A stretch of 24,638 nucleotides of DNA from a virus, in the IMG/VR virus record IMGVR_UViG_3300036770_007341, positions 1 to 24,638 of that record; one strand, given 5' to 3'. Both the position numbers and the translations under genes were made by a program. The first letter of the stretch is position 1. Every line of letters begins with the position of its first letter. Of this stretch, positions 2,289 to 23,222 are shown piece by piece. The notes beneath the pieces were generated by a model, which worked only from the letters and a program-made list of their open reading frames with translations, was not told the origin of the DNA and searched no databases.

Positions 2289-2822
2289 TTAGATCTCCTT
2301 ATTGCGCGACAACTTTTTGCGTTGTTCGCGCTCTAGACATCGAACAGAATGTCTCGCCTTGGCTTCTTCCGACCATTTCGTTGATGGCTTACCCTTTTTT
2401 GGTGAAACCTTGCCCTTCATAGGTCCTCCATCAATTCTCTTCCACCCTCCGTCTTTGCCTGCTGCTCGGCGACGTGCGTGTGCTTGCCTTTGAGACTCAC
2501 GCATACGTTCGATGCTTTCTGAGGAGTGTAATTTATTGCCGCCCGCTTCTCGATTGTTGTAGACGGTGATACCTTGTTGCCTATAATATTCTAACCAATG
2601 CTCTTCTTTAGAATTAAGGTCATCTATAGAAATAGCACTGTCGATGACTGTCCAGTCAAATTGCTCTTTACCGTATTTTCTAATGCTATCAAGCAAATAA
2701 CTTTTCTTACCACGTCGAGCATCGGCCAAATGCGAATACCAACGCATTTTAGGATTTTGTTGTATCGTTTGCCCTATGTAAACTTTACCGTTGGCATTGT
2801 TGGTTATTTTGTAGATGTGCAT
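2289..2822 (-). CDS. GIY-YIG homing endonuclease (177 aa)
   Basis: Residues 1-95 form a GIY-YIG nuclease domain: IYKI at the start, KVYIGQT about 10 residues later, an Arg-containing helix (MRWYSHL) and the conserved Glu in NSKEEHWLEYY. The Lys/Arg-rich remainder (SSESIERMRESQRQAH, KGKVSPKKGKPSTKW) looks like the NUMOD-type minor-groove binding tail of phage homing enzymes. The gene is visibly more AT-rich than gp14 and gp15 around it, a sign of separate origin. It lies exactly between two neck genes and ends one base before the putative gp15 start. A TAAATA box four bases before its ATG predicts an almost leaderless late mRNA. Such enzymes cut an allele lacking the insertion and spread by repair. 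Confidence 0.92.
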   Translation of the reverse strand: MHIYKITNNANGKVYIGQTIQQNPKMRWYSHLADARRGKKSYLLDSIRKYGKEQFDWTVIDSAISIDDLNSKEEHWLEYYRQQGITVYNNREAGGNKLHSSESIERMRESQRQAHARRRAAGKDGGWKRIDGGPMKGKVSPKKGKPSTKWSEEAKARHSVRCLEREQRKKLSRNKEI

Positions 2823-2826
2823 CTTT

Positions 2827-2832
2827 TATTTA
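2827..2832 (-). promoter_or_regulatory. T4-type late promoter box TAAATA for GIY-YIG gene
   Basis: On the minus strand ATAAATA is followed by four bases and the ATG at 2822. In T4 late promoters transcription begins about six bases past the last A, which here falls at 2821, within one base of the start codon. There is no room for a Shine-Dalgarno site on such an RNA. Confidence 0.6.
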
Positions 2833-2853
2833 TGTGCCAAGGTAGAAAAATTG

Positions 2854-4231: not shown

Positions 4232-4237
4232 TATTTA
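4232..4237 (-). promoter_or_regulatory. T4-type late promoter box for leftward neck operon
   Basis: The minus strand reads CATAAATACTGGACTATG. The box ends seven bases before the gp14 ATG, so the predicted start site (4226) leaves only a two-base leader. It lies eight bases from the -35 of the divergent sigma70-type promoter, so occupancy of the two could interfere. Confidence 0.65.
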
Positions 4238-4245
4238 TGGGCAGG

Positions 4246-7352: not shown

Positions 7353-7359
7353 CGGGTCT

Positions 7360-7392
7360 GGGATTCCTTGCTAAATATCAGCAAGGAATCCC
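7360..7392 (+). promoter_or_regulatory. Late box in the loop of a perfect 12-bp inverted repeat before gp13
   Basis: The arms GGGATTCCTTGC (7360-7371) and GCAAGGAATCCC (7381-7392) are exact reverse complements. The nine-base loop TAAATATCA contains the late box (7372-7377). The right arm holds the probable gp13 ribosome site AAGGAA (7383-7388). RNA entering from upstream would fold and hide that site; RNA started at the box (about 7383) would lack the left arm and leave it free. The same hairpin could also end upstream transcripts. Confidence 0.75.
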
Positions 7393-7395
7393 ACA

Positions 7396-8163
7396 ATGGA
7401 ACAGCAACAAGACAGCCTGTCCGAGCTCAAACAAAACGTTATCGAATACGTTAAATTACAGTTGGGCGATCAGATCATCGACATTGAGCTGGACCCGGCA
7501 CACTACGAAGCGGCCTATCAAAAAACCATTGGAACCTATCGCCAGAGGGCTACCAATGCCTACGAAGAAAGCTACAGCTTCATGTATCTGGTCAAAGACG
7601 AAAATATCTATCAGCTGCCGCAGGAAGTGATATCTGTGCGTCAGATCTTCCGGCGTACCTTTGGTGATGCCACTGGACCCTTTGCTTCAAACTTTGATCC
7701 TTTTGCCCAGGCTTCGCTCAATGTGTATCTCATGAATTTCAACGTGGCTGGAGGCATGGCCACCTATGATTTCTACAGCCAATATGTGGAACTGGCTGCC
7801 AGGATGTTTGGTGGCTACATCAACTACACTTTCAATCCTGTGACGAAAAAACTGCAACTTATACGAGATCCCAGAGGTACCGGCGAAGCAGTGCTGCTGT
7901 GGACCTACAATCTCAAACCTGAGATCAATCTCCTGAGCGATTTCCAGATTTCGCAGTGGATCAAAGACTACATGGTAGCGGCCAGCAAGATGATCATAGG
8001 CGAAGCTCGTGAAAAATTCGCCTCCATAGCCGGACCACAGGGTGGCACAGCCCTGAACGGAGCAGCCATGAAGGCCGAAGCGCAGGCCCAGATGGACATC
8101 AAACTGGAAGAACTTAAAAACTACGTAGATGCTTCACAACCCCTGACCTGGGTGATAGGATAA
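7396..8163 (+). CDS. 13: Neck protein, T4 gp13-like (head completion)
   Basis: The 255-aa product carries SELKQNVIEYVKLQLGDQII, YQKTIGTYRQRA, the central FDPFAQASLNVYLMNF block and the C-terminal LKNYVDASQPLTWVIG. These are the conserved segments of gp13 neck proteins of marine T4-like phages; T4 gp13 is 309 aa. The protein is expected to bind the portal vertex after DNA packaging and to recruit gp14. It is separated from gp14 and gp15 by about 3 kb and lies on the opposite strand, whereas in T4 genes 13, 14 and 15 are adjacent and co-oriented. The ATG at 7396 follows AAGGAA by seven bases. Expression is probably controlled by the hairpin/late-box element just upstream. Confidence 0.92.
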   Translation: MEQQQDSLSELKQNVIEYVKLQLGDQIIDIELDPAHYEAAYQKTIGTYRQRATNAYEESYSFMYLVKDENIYQLPQEVISVRQIFRRTFGDATGPFASNFDPFAQASLNVYLMNFNVAGGMATYDFYSQYVELAARMFGGYINYTFNPVTKKLQLIRDPRGTGEAVLLWTYNLKPEINLLSDFQISQWIKDYMVAASKMIIGEAREKFASIAGPQGGTALNGAAMKAEAQAQMDIKLEELKNYVDASQPLTWVIG

Positions 8164-8167
8164 CGTC

Positions 8168-8611
8168 ATGAGAGACTTACTGGATCTATTGGAAGCTGTA
8201 GAACGTGGCTGTCCACCAGCAACACAGAGTATTGACATCAATCTCAAGAATCGAAAGAAGGCCATCGATGAATACATGTATGGTCCCTTGGACCCCAATG
8301 AGCCCAACGAAGAGTTCTGGGCCAGCATCGCAGCAGAATGGAACATGTCGGACCCCGAAGACGCCAAGTCTGCTCGCTGCGGAAACTGTGCTGCGTTTGA
8401 TATTACCGAGCGCATGCAGGACTGCATCGCCAAGGGCATCGGCGCCGAACTCGGTAGCGATCCCATGGACACCGTGGATGCTGGAGAACTGGGCTACTGC
8501 AAGTTCTTGAAATTTAAGTGTGCTGCAAAGCGAACGTGCATTGCTTTCGTCGAAGGTGGCCCAATCAAAGAAGACGAATACGACGATAAAGTCCGAAGTT
8601 TACAATCGTAA
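8168..8611 (+). CDS. Cys-rich conserved phage protein, possibly Fe-S or metal binding (147 aa)
   Basis: Six of its seven cysteines cluster in the C-terminal half: C71-GN-C74, C86, C111, C118 and C124. The segment RCGNCAAFD followed by GYCKFLKFKC recalls the CxxC...C...C layout of high-potential iron-sulfur proteins, whose usual motif has the form C-x-N-C, but the later spacing is longer (24 residues), so this is only a hint; a zinc site is the alternative. The N-terminal half has INLKNRKKAIDEYMYGPLDP and NEEFWASIAAEW, which I recall from uncharacterised proteins of marine T4-like phages. It starts four bases after the gp13 stop and is probably co-expressed with it. Function unknown; virion association is possible. 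Confidence 0.78.
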   Translation: MRDLLDLLEAVERGCPPATQSIDINLKNRKKAIDEYMYGPLDPNEPNEEFWASIAAEWNMSDPEDAKSARCGNCAAFDITERMQDCIAKGIGAELGSDPMDTVDAGELGYCKFLKFKCAAKRTCIAFVEGGPIKEDEYDDKVRSLQS

Positions 8612-8623
8612 AACCTATCCATT

Positions 8624-8650
8624 GCATGTGAGTCATAAATACTCACATGC
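8624..8650 (+). promoter_or_regulatory. Late box in a perfect 10-bp hairpin covering the endonuclease start codon
   Basis: The arms GCATGTGAGT (8624-8633) and ACTCACATGC (8641-8650) pair exactly around the loop CATAAAT. TAAATA spans 8636-8641 and the ATG (8647-8649) lies within the right arm. The predicted late start site is exactly 8647. Readthrough RNA from upstream would bury the start codon; late RNA would begin at it. The layout parallels the known control of T4 I-TevI. Confidence 0.75.
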
Positions 8651-9300
8651 TGATATACAGAGCAATCAACAAAATCAACGGTAAGTCTTATATAGGTAAG
8701 ACTGAAAAATCACTGGAAATTCGCCGCGAATGGCATGTCCAGTCTGTCCGACAGCAAAGTCAATTCGCATTTCATAGAGCAATATCTAAGTACGGAACAG
8801 ATGCTTTTGAATGGCAGGTATTAGATACCGCAACTGATTTGCAAGATCTAAACCAAAAAGAACAACATTATATTTCCTTGTATGAATCCTTTGGAACCAA
8901 TGGCTATAACATGACTGCCGGCGGTGAAGGACAGACTGGCTGGAATCCCTCCCCAGAAACTCGAGCCTTATGGAGCCAACAACGCAAGGGCAAAAAACCC
9001 TGGAATGCAGGAACAGCAATGCCAAAACAAACCAAGTCTGAAGAAGAAAAGGCAGCAACAAAATTAGCAGCGAACCAAAAACGCAGTGAGGCATTGAAGG
9101 GACGCAAGACCTGGAACACTGGGTTGGCAGGTACATATGCCAAGACAATGTACAAAGTCACATACAAAGATGGCACTGAGAAAGTTGGAACAAGATTGGA
9201 TCTAAATTTACCGCCCCAAACCATTGGTATGATGTTCCGAGATAAGTGCGGCAGTCGTAAATACAACATCATGAAAATTGAAAGATTATGCGAGCCTTAG
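8647..9300 (+). CDS. GIY-YIG homing endonuclease (217 aa)
   Basis: The nuclease domain covers residues 1-90: MLIYRAI and KSYIGKT form the GIY and YIG elements, followed by Arg-containing helix EIRREWH and the metal-binding Glu in NQKEQHYISLY. The next segment, GYNMTAGGEGQTG with RKGKKPWNAG and KGRKTWNTG, resembles NUMOD3-like DNA-binding repeats. The C-terminal YKVTYKDGTEKVGTRLDLN, with a following helix, looks like a sequence-reading domain of the NUMOD1 type. It is AT-rich relative to its neighbours, so it is likely mobile. It shares only the family fold with the enzyme at 2289-2822. It overlaps the next gene by 13 bases, so insertion left the downstream start intact. Confidence 0.93.
   Translation: MLIYRAINKINGKSYIGKTEKSLEIRREWHVQSVRQQSQFAFHRAISKYGTDAFEWQVLDTATDLQDLNQKEQHYISLYESFGTNGYNMTAGGEGQTGWNPSPETRALWSQQRKGKKPWNAGTAMPKQTKSEEEKAATKLAANQKRSEALKGRKTWNTGLAGTYAKTMYKVTYKDGTEKVGTRLDLNLPPQTIGMMFRDKCGSRKYNIMKIERLCEP
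9258..9263 (+). promoter_or_regulatory. Candidate late promoter box inside endonuclease 3' end
   Basis: TAAATA lies in codons RKY near the end of the GIY-YIG gene, 24 bases before the ATG at 9288. The spacing matches the leadered boxes at 7372, 14765 and 17899. It could let the next gene be expressed independently of the endonuclease, but codon content alone could also produce it. Confidence 0.4.
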
Positions 9301-9569
9301 AATTCGTTGCTGAAAAGTGGAGCCAAAAATACAAACGCTCGATAAACTGTGTGAGACCGCGCGGTTTCAGCCAACGTGCTCATTGTGCTGGTAGAAAAAA
9401 AACCGATGAAGAACAACTGGATGAACTCACGTTCCGTGGCAGCGAATGCACCAAAGACTGTTCCGGTCACAGGGCCGGTTATGAGTGGTGGCAGCGAAAC
9501 CAGAGATCCCCACAGAGTTGGAGTGTCAGTTTCAATAAAGGTGCGGCCATCGCCGCAGCCGGAGGCTGA
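9288..9569 (+). CDS. Small protein with capsid-targeting-like leader and two Cys motifs (93 aa)
   Basis: It begins MRALEFVAE, matching the MRAxEFVxE leader of three other proteins here and resembling the cleavable capsid-targeting peptide of T4 internal proteins. After the leader comes KYKRSINCVRPRGFSQRAHC, a short module I recognise from many small marine-phage proteins. A second module follows near residues 52-68, GSECTKDCSGHRAGYEWW, also recurrent in such phages. Cys and His in both could bind zinc, or the cysteines could form disulfides; neither is proven. The start overlaps the upstream endonuclease by 13 bases. Packaging in the head is inferred from the leader only. Confidence 0.72.
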   Translation: MRALEFVAEKWSQKYKRSINCVRPRGFSQRAHCAGRKKTDEEQLDELTFRGSECTKDCSGHRAGYEWWQRNQRSPQSWSVSFNKGAAIAAAGG

Positions 9570-14731: not shown

Positions 14732-14755
14732 AGAGAGGGGAGTGATCCCCTCTCT
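14732..14755 (+). terminator. Hairpin after tail sheath gene
   Basis: A perfect 10-bp stem (AGAGAGGGGA with TCCCCTCTCT) is closed by a GTGA tetraloop, which is of the very stable GNRA type. It begins six bases after the sheath stop. No T-run follows, so it may stop polymerase weakly or protect the sheath RNA 3' end. It separates the sheath message from the tail tube promoter at 14765. Confidence 0.7.
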
Positions 14756-14764
14756 CCGATCGGA

Positions 14765-14770
14765 TAAATA
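14765..14770 (+). promoter_or_regulatory. T4-type late box for tail tube operon
   Basis: GATAAATAA lies 20 bases before the ATG at 14791, with CAGGAG (14777-14782) as ribosome site. The predicted leader is about 15 bases. It lets tail tube and following genes be expressed separately from the sheath. Confidence 0.65.
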
Positions 14771-14790: not shown

Positions 14791-15429
14791 ATGTCAGTTT
14801 CATCACTACAGCGAATGACAGTACCCTTGGCGAGCGATCAGAGTTCACCTACACAGGGACTTTTGATGCCAAAATTGAGATATCGCTTCCGGGTGATGTT
14901 CGAAAACTTTGGCATCAGCAAACCAACCACTGAGCTCACCAAACAGGTCATGAGCTTCAGCCGTCCAAACCTCACGTTTGAAAACATAGATCTGCCCATC
15001 TACAACTCCACGCTGAAACTGGCCGGCAAGCACAGCTGGGCCGATGTGACCTGCGAAGTCCGTGACGATGCTTCGGGTGCAGTGAGCCGGCTGGTGGGCG
15101 AACAACTGCAGAAACAACTAGATTTCCTAGAAATGGCATCAGCTGCTTCAGGTATCGACTACAAATTCCTGACCAAAGTTGAAATACTGGATGGTGGCAA
15201 CGGAGCCATTGAGCCCACGGTGCTAGAGACCTGGGAACTCTACGGTTGTTATCTGCAGGGCGCGGATTACGGTGCTCTCAACTACGGCGCAAGCACAGAA
15301 GCGGTGACCATCAACATGACCATACGCTATGACAACGCCAACCAAAGCCCAGTGGGCGTGGGCGTTGGTACAGCACTGGGTCGTACCGCAGCAGGCGTGG
15401 TCACAGGCGCGGGCCAGGCTTCGGCCTAA
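14791..15429 (+). CDS. 19: Tail tube protein (gp19-like, 212 aa)
   Basis: The opening LRYRFRVMFENFG, then TKQVMSFSRPNLTFENIDLP and STLKLAGKHSWADVTCEVRD, form the beta-barrel tube fold of gp19, which stacks in hexamers to make the channel inside the sheath. The C-terminal half has ETWELYGCYLQGADYGALNY and AVTINMTIRYDNANQ, typical of cyanophage-type gp19. T4 gp19 is 163 aa; the extra here is an N-terminal arm and a Gly/Ala-rich tail. It follows the sheath as in T4. A strong ribosome site (CAGGAG) and its own late box fit abundant late expression. Confidence 0.95.
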   Translation: MSVSSLQRMTVPLASDQSSPTQGLLMPKLRYRFRVMFENFGISKPTTELTKQVMSFSRPNLTFENIDLPIYNSTLKLAGKHSWADVTCEVRDDASGAVSRLVGEQLQKQLDFLEMASAASGIDYKFLTKVEILDGGNGAIEPTVLETWELYGCYLQGADYGALNYGASTEAVTINMTIRYDNANQSPVGVGVGTALGRTAAGVVTGAGQASA

Positions 15430-16970: not shown

Positions 16971-17398
16971 AGCGCTGGGCCCAAGGCAAGTATCAGATCC
17001 TGAATCCAGACAAGTATGTGGGCCGTGGCCTGCCCACATACCGCAGCGGCTGGGAACACAGCTTCATGCGGTTCTGCGACACCAACGAACATGTGCTGCA
17101 ATGGGCCAGCGAACCGGTGAACATACCCTATCGGCACCCACTGACCGGTCGCATAACACACTATGTGCCGGATTTCATCATAACCTATCGCAACAAGAAC
17201 AACACAGTGCAGGCCGAGCTGATCGAAATCAAACCCAAAGGACAGAGCGTGATCGAATCCAAGATGAAAAGCCGAGAACGCGCCGTGGTAGCTGTGAACT
17301 ACTGCAAATGGGATGCGGCCACCAAATGGGCCCGGCGCAATGGCCTGGTTTTCCGTGTGATCACAGAGGATCAGATGTTCTGGACGGGCAAGTCATAA
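16967..17398 (+). CDS. 4: Head completion protein, PD-(D/E)XK nuclease fold (gp4-like)
   Basis: The 143-aa product carries a TnsA-type nuclease signature: E30 in YRSGWEHSFM, P68-D69 in YVPDFIITY and E87-x-K89 in LIEIKPKG. This is the set of T4 gp4 (also called gp50/65 head completion), needed to finish packaged heads, possibly by trimming DNA at the vertex. The start MKRWAQGKYQILNPDKYVGR matches the KF/Y-x-NP-x-KY-x-G opening of the family. The ATG overlaps the preceding stop (ATGA). The small terminase gene follows after 14 bases, so a packaging pair lies together. Confidence 0.9.
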   Translation: MKRWAQGKYQILNPDKYVGRGLPTYRSGWEHSFMRFCDTNEHVLQWASEPVNIPYRHPLTGRITHYVPDFIITYRNKNNTVQAELIEIKPKGQSVIESKMKSRERAVVAVNYCKWDAATKWARRNGLVFRVITEDQMFWTGKS

Positions 17399-17417: not shown

Positions 17418-17901
17418 TCGTCGACTGCAACAATTGTTTGATTTACCAGAATCCGGTACCCCGGATGCGCAGGATCATGTGTCAGAGTTGCCCACCACTG
17501 CCACTGACATCCTGGCCCTGGACGAAACCATAGACAAGATAGACAGTGCCCTGCCCGCTGTGCGTGGACTGGAAAGCACAGATCAAGAAATGGATGAGCT
17601 GGCAGACATGGCCAAGAACAGCTACAACGATCTCATGGATCTGGGCATGCAGGTGGATAGCCGATTTGCATCAGAGATATTTTCGGTGGCCTCCAACATG
17701 TTGGGACATGCAATAACCGCCAAGACTGCCAAGCTGGACAAAAAACTCAAGATGATTGATCTGCAGATGAAAAAAGCTCGCCTGGATCAGCAACAGCCCG
17801 AGGCACCTGCCGCACACACCGGCACTGGCACAGTGCTGAGCCGCAATGAACTATTGGATCGCATCATTGGCAGCAATCGGCAAAACACACCCAAAGCATA
17901 A
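17413..17901 (+). CDS. 16: Terminase small subunit (gp16-like, 162 aa)
   Basis: The layout matches T4 gp16 (164 aa): an N-terminal LQQLFDLPESG resembling T4 LLDISDLPG, an acidic linker, then a long helical hairpin LADMAKNSYNDLMDLGMQVD and ASEIFSVASNMLGHAITAKT ending in KLKMIDLQMKKARL. In T4 the equivalent central helices form the oligomeric ring that regulates the large terminase and recognises DNA to be packaged. The C-terminal NELLDRIIGSNRQ recalls the T4 ending. Family assignment is by pattern and by position next to gp4, not by close identity. ATG 17413 is chosen because upstream in-frame codons lie inside gp4 and the late box precedes it. The large terminase is not in this window. Confidence 0.75.
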   Translation: MTRRLQQLFDLPESGTPDAQDHVSELPTTATDILALDETIDKIDSALPAVRGLESTDQEMDELADMAKNSYNDLMDLGMQVDSRFASEIFSVASNMLGHAITAKTAKLDKKLKMIDLQMKKARLDQQQPEAPAAHTGTGTVLSRNELLDRIIGSNRQNTPKA

Positions 17902-17904
17902 ATA
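17899..17904 (+). promoter_or_regulatory. T4-type late box overlapping gp16 stop
   Basis: CATAAATATT uses the TAA stop of gp16. The ATG at 17923 is 18 bases on, with AGGA (17911-17914) as ribosome site; the predicted leader is about 13 bases. TCAATA and TATTGA (17905-17919) could form a small hairpin around the ribosome site. Confidence 0.55.
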
Positions 17905-22499: not shown

Positions 22500-23219
22500 A
22501 TGCCTATCGTGATCGGACCCGGCATCGAGATTGGCGCTGGCATCACTGTGGCCAGCACTGACTCGTTCGTGAATCCCACGCTGGACATAGGTTCAGCAGT
22601 CAGTGTCGTGTCACAGTCTCCTTTCGTGGGTGGCGGCAACAGCTACAGTTTCTCCAGTTCAGTCAACAGCTACATCGATACCGCGGGCAGCGCGGACTGG
22701 GCCGTGGGCACCGGCGATTTCACCATAGAGTGGTTTGGCTACCAGACCTCCACTGCCAGTTTCCAACGGGTGTTCACCGTGGATGATTTCCCTAGCATAG
22801 ACATCGGCGTCAGCATAGAAGACGCCACATTCTACTACTGGGCCAATGATGCTTTCCGCTTCAGTTCGGGTGGTGCCACTGCAATCAACACTTGGTATCA
22901 CTGGGCCGTGGTTCGTGCATCGGGTACTACCACGGTGTACCGCAACGGTTCTGTGAGAGGCAGCGCTTTTGCTGACACCAACAACATCACCAACACCACA
23001 GATCCCTTGACCATAGGCAATGAAAACACTGCCAGCACCCTGGCAGCCTTTCAGGGCTACATCACCAATTTCCGCTGGATCAAGGGCCTGGCAGTGTACA
23101 CTGGAGCATTCACAGTGCCCACATCCGCTCTCACTGCCACCGCTGCTGCCAATCCCTATGGTGGTGCAAACACCCAGGCCATACCCTCAGGAGTCACCAA
23201 GCTGCTGCTGGTGCCATAA
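22500..23219 (+). CDS. LamG/concanavalin-like jelly-roll protein 2 (239 aa)
   Basis: The start VIGPGIEIGAGITVAS mirrors that of the preceding gene, so the two share the same N-terminal module. The jelly roll reads YSFSSSVNSYIDTAG, DFTIEWFGYQ, INTWYHWAVVRASGTTTVYR with NGSVRG, LTIGNEN, and YITNFRWIKGLAVYTGAFTV. The last segment (NFRWIKGLAVYTG) is a familiar LamG ending in marine phage structural proteins. The glycan-binding core differs from copy 1, suggesting different ligands. The TAA stop doubles as part of the next late box. Carbohydrate binding is inferred from the fold. Confidence 0.86.
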   Translation: MPIVIGPGIEIGAGITVASTDSFVNPTLDIGSAVSVVSQSPFVGGGNSYSFSSSVNSYIDTAGSADWAVGTGDFTIEWFGYQTSTASFQRVFTVDDFPSIDIGVSIEDATFYYWANDAFRFSSGGATAINTWYHWAVVRASGTTTVYRNGSVRGSAFADTNNITNTTDPLTIGNENTASTLAAFQGYITNFRWIKGLAVYTGAFTVPTSALTATAAANPYGGANTQAIPSGVTKLLLVP

Positions 23220-23222
23220 ATA
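23217..23222 (+). promoter_or_regulatory. T4-type late box for leader-protein pair
   Basis: CATAAATATTCCAATG: the box overlaps the stop of the LamG gene and ends five bases before the ATG at 23228, which is exactly the predicted RNA start. A leaderless RNA is expected. No Shine-Dalgarno is present. Confidence 0.6.

Follow-up and report, generated by a model that had tools for sequence, protein, structure and literature searches.

In T4, the model for late phage transcription, an RNA stem over the ribosome site keeps late proteins silent in early readthrough RNA. Is the same device at work where the start codon of a putative homing-endonuclease gene lies in a perfect hairpin beside a late promoter? 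The locus that raises this question was found in a stretch of 24,638 bases (hereafter the window, meaning the whole stretch of DNA analysed), an IMG/VR virus record from an uncultured T4-like myovirus. Its gene content includes tail sheath, tail tube, head-tail adaptor and head-closure genes, and the closest named relatives of the sheath belong to jumbo phages, e.g. Atu_ph07, Phosso and PA5oct. Relatives of the head-tail adaptor are encoded on more than 590 IMG/VR stretches, 80 of which were kept (source contigs up to 317 kb). Searching GTDB contigs for the host of this clade gave two matches only, both metagenome bins (uncultured Legionella and Pacearchaeota) and too weak for naming a host. 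Known RNA families were not detected in the window. The locus itself comprises the following features:

8168 to 8611, plus strand: upstream gene of 147 aa, a conserved neighbour and the 5' border of the insertion
8624 to 8650, plus strand: perfect 10-bp hairpin GCATGTGAGT-CATAAAT-ACTCACATGC, with arms 8624–8633 and 8641–8650 and loop 8634–8640
8635 to 8641, plus strand: ATAAATA core of a T4-type late promoter (CATAAATA at 8634–8641)
8647, plus strand: predicted transcription start, the A of the start codon, deduced from the 5-nt gap kept in seven sequences
8647 to 9300, plus strand: putative free-standing GIY-YIG/NUMOD3 homing-endonuclease gene, 217 aa, with PF01541 and phrog_314 matches
9288 to 9569, plus strand: downstream MRAxEFV-type gene, the 3' border of the insertion, overlapping the last codons of the endonuclease gene

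Both its domain and its insertion context mark the GIY-YIG gene as a putative free-standing homing endonuclease. In the insert-free relatives L092, L136, L165 and L169 the 147-aa gene directly adjoins the MRAxEFV gene; the endonuclease is hence a free-standing insertion between genes that are adjacent in relatives, bearing out the preliminary description, which had called it not intron-borne. ATAAATA is absent from the 147-aa/MRAxEFV junction of these insert-free phages, which is a direct observation and indicates that the promoter came with, or originated in, the inserted cassette. The insertion is very compact: at 9288–9300 (ATGCGAGCC) the 3' codons of the endonuclease run into the beginning of the downstream gene, and the endonuclease stop codon is made of the neighbour's codons. 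The MRAxEFV N-terminus is common to several small proteins of the window (9288, 9576, 23228 and 23596), a repeated family that recurs in related phages.

The hairpin at 8624–8650 consists of 10 Watson-Crick pairs and the 7-nt loop CATAAAT. ATAAATA begins within the loop (8635) and finishes in the right arm (8641), which also holds the ATG at 8647; the anatomy described earlier, with TAAATA running from the loop and the endonuclease ATG in the right arm, was exact. Folded alone as RNA, the fragment reaches -13.7 kcal/mol (z = -5.3). Under a first-order Markov model of the window, about 0.18 hairpins with arms of exactly 10 bp are expected per window, and 0.05 with 11-bp arms (loops up to 12). 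When upstream and downstream flanks of other leaderless promoters were combined into chimeras, a stem of at least 9 bp covering the AUG arose in about 0.1%. The hairpin is improbable at a single site (~1e-3), yet about 0.1 such stems are expected among 101 similar leaderless promoters, so it may be due to chance.

In the predicted readthrough RNA of the window gene the AUG is never free (unpaired probability 0.00, compared with 0.42 for swapped flanks and 0.44 for the leaderless RNA). The late promoter lies within and beside the stem, and the predicted +1 at 8647 is past the left arm, which would leave late RNA without that arm. This is the basis for a switch like that of I-TevI, in which the readthrough hairpin hides the start codon and late RNA from inside the right arm escapes. 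Of the hidden start proposed earlier, one half stands, the AUG being fully paired in the predicted fold; the other does not, because there is no SD to hide. No SD at a usable distance was seen before ATG 8647, and only the AUG lies within the stem. This lack of an SD for the stem to sequester is one of several points that make the switch unlikely here.

Other hairpins of at least 10 bp in the window are found at 479–513, 7359–7393, 14732–14755 and 17014–17041. As window hairpins are mostly intergenic, the stem at 8624–8650 could be read as a terminator or as a stabiliser of the RNA 3' end of the upstream gene. It is followed by no U-tract and was absent from the terminator scan, on which grounds an intrinsic terminator was rejected; this whole reading has very little probability. 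The 12-bp hairpin at 479–513 lies between convergent genes ending at 471 (plus strand) and 468 (minus strand). A GC-rich 10-bp hairpin at 14732–14755, just 5' of the ATAAATA of the tail tube gene and with no clear U-tract, may end sheath transcripts. The remaining hairpin of interest is the following:

7359 to 7393, plus strand: perfect 14-bp hairpin with TAAATA in the loop and AAGGA (SD-like) in the right arm, directly 5' of the head-tail adaptor gene at 7396

This hairpin matches the classic SD-hiding late-promoter hairpin better than that at 8624–8650. Similar stems of different sequence are present in the relatives L035 and L042, and most relatives are without one. Leadered relatives of the head-tail adaptor gene (gene 14; L069–L089 and others) often carry a small GGGAC..GTCCC stem with the SD in its loop, which begins near the predicted +1 and whose arm sequence varies between phages.

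Comparison with orthologs bears directly on the hairpin. Six orthologs of the window endonuclease were found (L001, identical to L199; L225, L194, L181, L266 and L272), with 66–68% identity across the five aligned. The end of the same 147-aa gene precedes the ortholog in L001, L194, L181, L266 and L272; the contig of L225 ends too early to read the upstream gene. CATAAATA, a gap of exactly 5 nt and the ATG, with no SD, were kept in all seven sequences (window and orthologs). M1-L2-I3-Y4 is invariant across the five aligned orthologs, and since M1-Y4 is part of the GIY-YIG domain, a downstream start codon for the endonuclease was ruled out. The stem fared differently from the spacing. All ten pairs are formed by the window alone among the five aligned sequences, and two further orthologs are also without the hairpin; by inspection, L266 has two mismatches in the hairpin register. 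In the five-sequence alignment 58% of stem cells are paired, vs 57.2% in shuffles, and no pair was altered on both sides. Thus the I-TevI-like control put forward in the preliminary description failed the comparative test, for want of both a conserved stem and compensatory change; what related free-standing GIY-YIG genes keep is the promoter spacing, not the hairpin. The late start at 8647, also part of that description, is upheld as a prediction, as the box 5 nt before the ATG places +1 there by T4 numbering.

The symmetry of the repeat bears on a further possibility, that the inverted repeat is a DNA operator, overlapping the late promoter, for the endonuclease or another dimeric protein. 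I-TevI binds an operator across its own late promoter and represses itself (PMC2988022), and the sequence preceding the promoter, CA[A/T]GTGA..CATAAATA, is fairly conserved among the orthologs. However, the repeat symmetry is not conserved and no homing site is known here for comparison, and we consider an operator improbable.

Readthrough occlusion was also scored over 27 leaderless GIY-YIG sites; for one of them, L200, the motif scored was an overlapping copy at gap 1. The AUG was unpaired at 0.29; swapping the flanks gave 0.36 (p = 0.11) and shuffling the upstream sequence 0.39 (p = 0.015). The hidden-start switch draws some support from the latter comparison, though not from the former, and from L272, L194 and L225, where the AUG is also strongly paired, through different stems formed with the promoter's own GCATA. 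Over the 27 sites there is at most a weak signal. Against the switch, the second GIY-YIG gene of the window has no hairpin, and the leaderless-promoter class as a whole showed neither excess flank pairing (3.99 vs 3.98 bp) nor AUG occlusion. Together with the orthologs, these results led us to reject the hairpin as a conserved or general switch. The best reading of the sequences is that the hairpin at 8624–8650 is probably a private addition in one phage, or an accident.

Flank pairing was in excess in the leadered class (stems of at least 7 bp, 8.7% vs 1.1%). For the sheath gene this excess is largely due to an upstream terminator-like CCTTTTTT, which pairs with AAAAGG in the SD. Counted by protein cluster, leadered sites show no clearly greater SD occlusion than chimeras do. 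For these two reasons we do not claim that leadered promoters generally have SD-hiding stems.

The division into leaderless and leadered promoters emerges from the spacing of ATAAATA. The window has six copies, each immediately before a gene. Besides the copy at 8635, they and the second GIY-YIG gene are:

2289 to 2822, minus strand: second GIY-YIG gene, with ATAAATA, 4 nt, ATG; no hairpin
2827 to 2833, minus strand: ATAAATA late promoter of the second GIY-YIG gene
4232 to 4238, minus strand: ATAAATA 7 nt before the ATG of a virion structural gene (MPRLSLYRP...), leaderless class
14764 to 14770, plus strand: ATAAATA with SD-containing leader, tail tube gene at 14791, leadered class
17898 to 17904, plus strand: ATAAATA with SD-containing leader, virion structural gene (ATG 17923), leadered class
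23216 to 23222, plus strand: ATAAATA 5 nt before ATG 23228 (MRAREFV protein), leaderless class

A census was carried out over about 160 related contigs with 250 distinct ATAAATA sites, 208 of which lie within 40 nt before an ATG opening an ORF (at least 60 aa). The gaps between ATAAATA and ATG fall into two classes seen directly in the counts: 4–8 nt (n = 101) and 15–34 nt (n = 103), with only two sites at 9–14 nt. An SD core is present at 2 of the 101 short-gap sites vs 86 of the 103 long-gap sites. The 101 short-gap sites make up 22 protein clusters and are homologous, hence not independent by descent. Across IMG/VR, 59 distinct GIY-YIG starts have ATAAATA within 25 nt, 17 at gap 5 and 4 at gap 4; the remainder are scattered or form a second group at gap 15–25, often with an SD. 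In 14 larger clade contigs the pattern ATAAATAN{4,8}ATG gave 87 matches vs 16 for a reversed-pattern control, and the N{9,13} version 14 vs 19; these totals are summed over contigs and include G003 and G004, apparently near-identical phages. No short-gap excess over the reversed control was seen in T4 (4 vs 5), Syn9 (3 vs 5), PA5oct (12 vs 15) or Phosso (2 vs 2), and counts were slightly above it in Atu_ph07 (18 vs 10) and SCTP-2 (38 vs 30). By these counts, some half of the exact late promoters in this uncultured T4-like phage group have the predicted promoter-on-ATG layout.

Two lines of evidence identify ATAAATA as a T4-type late promoter, a box like TATAAATA about one helical turn before the predicted transcription start: 208 of the 250 sites precede an ORF start by no more than 40 nt, and 10 of 15 large clade contigs encode a gp55-like late sigma factor, although none was seen in the window itself, a 24.6-kb fragment. 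The T4 box spans -13 to -6 (PMC2988020), and by this measure a gap of 5 would set +1 on the A of the ATG, yielding a leaderless late mRNA. Within the clade, gap 5 is roughly matched in frequency by gap 4 and by gaps 6–7, so a transcript may in some cases begin within the AUG or have a leader of 1–3 nt.

The near ATG is also the true start in the most frequent leaderless gene, which encodes a virion structural protein (phrog_11591). Among 37 homologs, conservation begins at residue 1, with an identity of 0.63 at third vs 0.97 at second codon positions. Conservation from M1 with free third positions points to the near ATG and excludes a downstream start. The orthologs in PA5oct and Phosso have ATAAATA with 20–28-nt leaders containing AGGAG or GGGAG; either the leader was dropped by the clade or it was gained by the relatives PA5oct and Phosso. 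The ribosomal protein bS21 is encoded in 7 of the 15 large clade contigs, L333 and L334 among them; by eye, the sequence flanking bS21 in L333 is DnaK-like and ClpX-like. A phage-encoded IF3 was looked for and not found.

The proximity to the ATG allows another interpretation, namely that ATAAATA is an A/U-rich translation enhancer acting at the RNA level and not a promoter. Translation initiation without an SD does exist in some bacterial groups. However, ATAAATA also occurs 15–34 nt upstream with an SD in between, which fits a promoter and not a ribosome signal at fixed distance, and a gp55-like sigma is encoded; a role as enhancer therefore seems scarcely probable.

From the conserved spacing and the missing SD we infer the following course of events. 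With the T4-type promoter recognised by the gp55-like late sigma, the A of the AUG would be the first base of the transcript, and ribosomes would initiate at the very 5' end of this leaderless mRNA. When transcription reads through from upstream genes, this AUG would lie inside the RNA and, having no SD, be poorly translated. The two together would suffice for late-only expression without further control. The endonuclease is thus probably expressed only late, from leaderless late-promoter mRNA, with the hairpin optional: it would add AUG masking in the readthrough RNA of this phage or have no function. The same layout would serve many other late genes of the clade, virion genes included. We see about an even chance that the account extends further, this uncultured jumbo T4-like clade having relocated some half of its recognisable late promoters to the start codon, as an SD-independent leaderless class that silences late genes in readthrough RNA, with mobile GIY-YIG genes carrying the layout as a portable late-only module. 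If true, the clade would have solved the readthrough problem of T4 more simply, by loss of leader and SD, for virion genes and mobile endonucleases alike. The prediction is genome-wide: in about 20 gene families, late 5' ends should coincide with the A of the AUG or directly adjoin it. In these phages, start codons may be wrongly assigned by gene finders that rely on an SD.

The open-access literature yielded no description of T4-type late promoters that are leaderless, let alone as a large and clearly distinct class; subscription papers were mostly outside the search, which is hence weak evidence of novelty. Control by hairpin and late promoter is established for I-TevI and genes e, soc and 49 and has been extended to mobE of phage Aeh1 and to segB (PMC2988022, PMC3014915). 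T4 segB, a free-standing GIY-YIG gene, was grouped with the I-TevI mechanism, alongside the HNH gene mobE (PMC2988022), so that a switch of this kind, were it to operate here, would add one more example to an established type. I-TevI and I-TevII share with our locus a GIY-YIG endonuclease, a late promoter beside the gene and a predicted readthrough stem over the start region. In these systems, however, the stem hides the SD and the late mRNA is leadered, whereas the locus described here has no SD, a predicted +1 on the AUG and an unconserved stem; the I-TevI-type arrangement, in which a stem sequesters a consensus SD some 8 nt upstream of the AUG, is not what the window gene has. T4 segB and mobE of Aeromonas phage Aeh1 are likewise free-standing endonuclease genes with an inhibitory stem implicated (segB) or shown (mobE), but there the RBS is sequestered, and leaderlessness is not described in either source (PMC2988022, PMC3014915). 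The T4 genes e, soc and 49 resemble our proposal as late genes that are silent in early readthrough RNA and translated from late-promoter RNA. They use stems that hide the SD or AUG, whereas here the missing SD and a leaderless late RNA would mainly serve this end. In their 5'-terminal AUG and their lack of an SD, the predicted late transcripts are akin to the leaderless mRNAs of bacteria and some phages.
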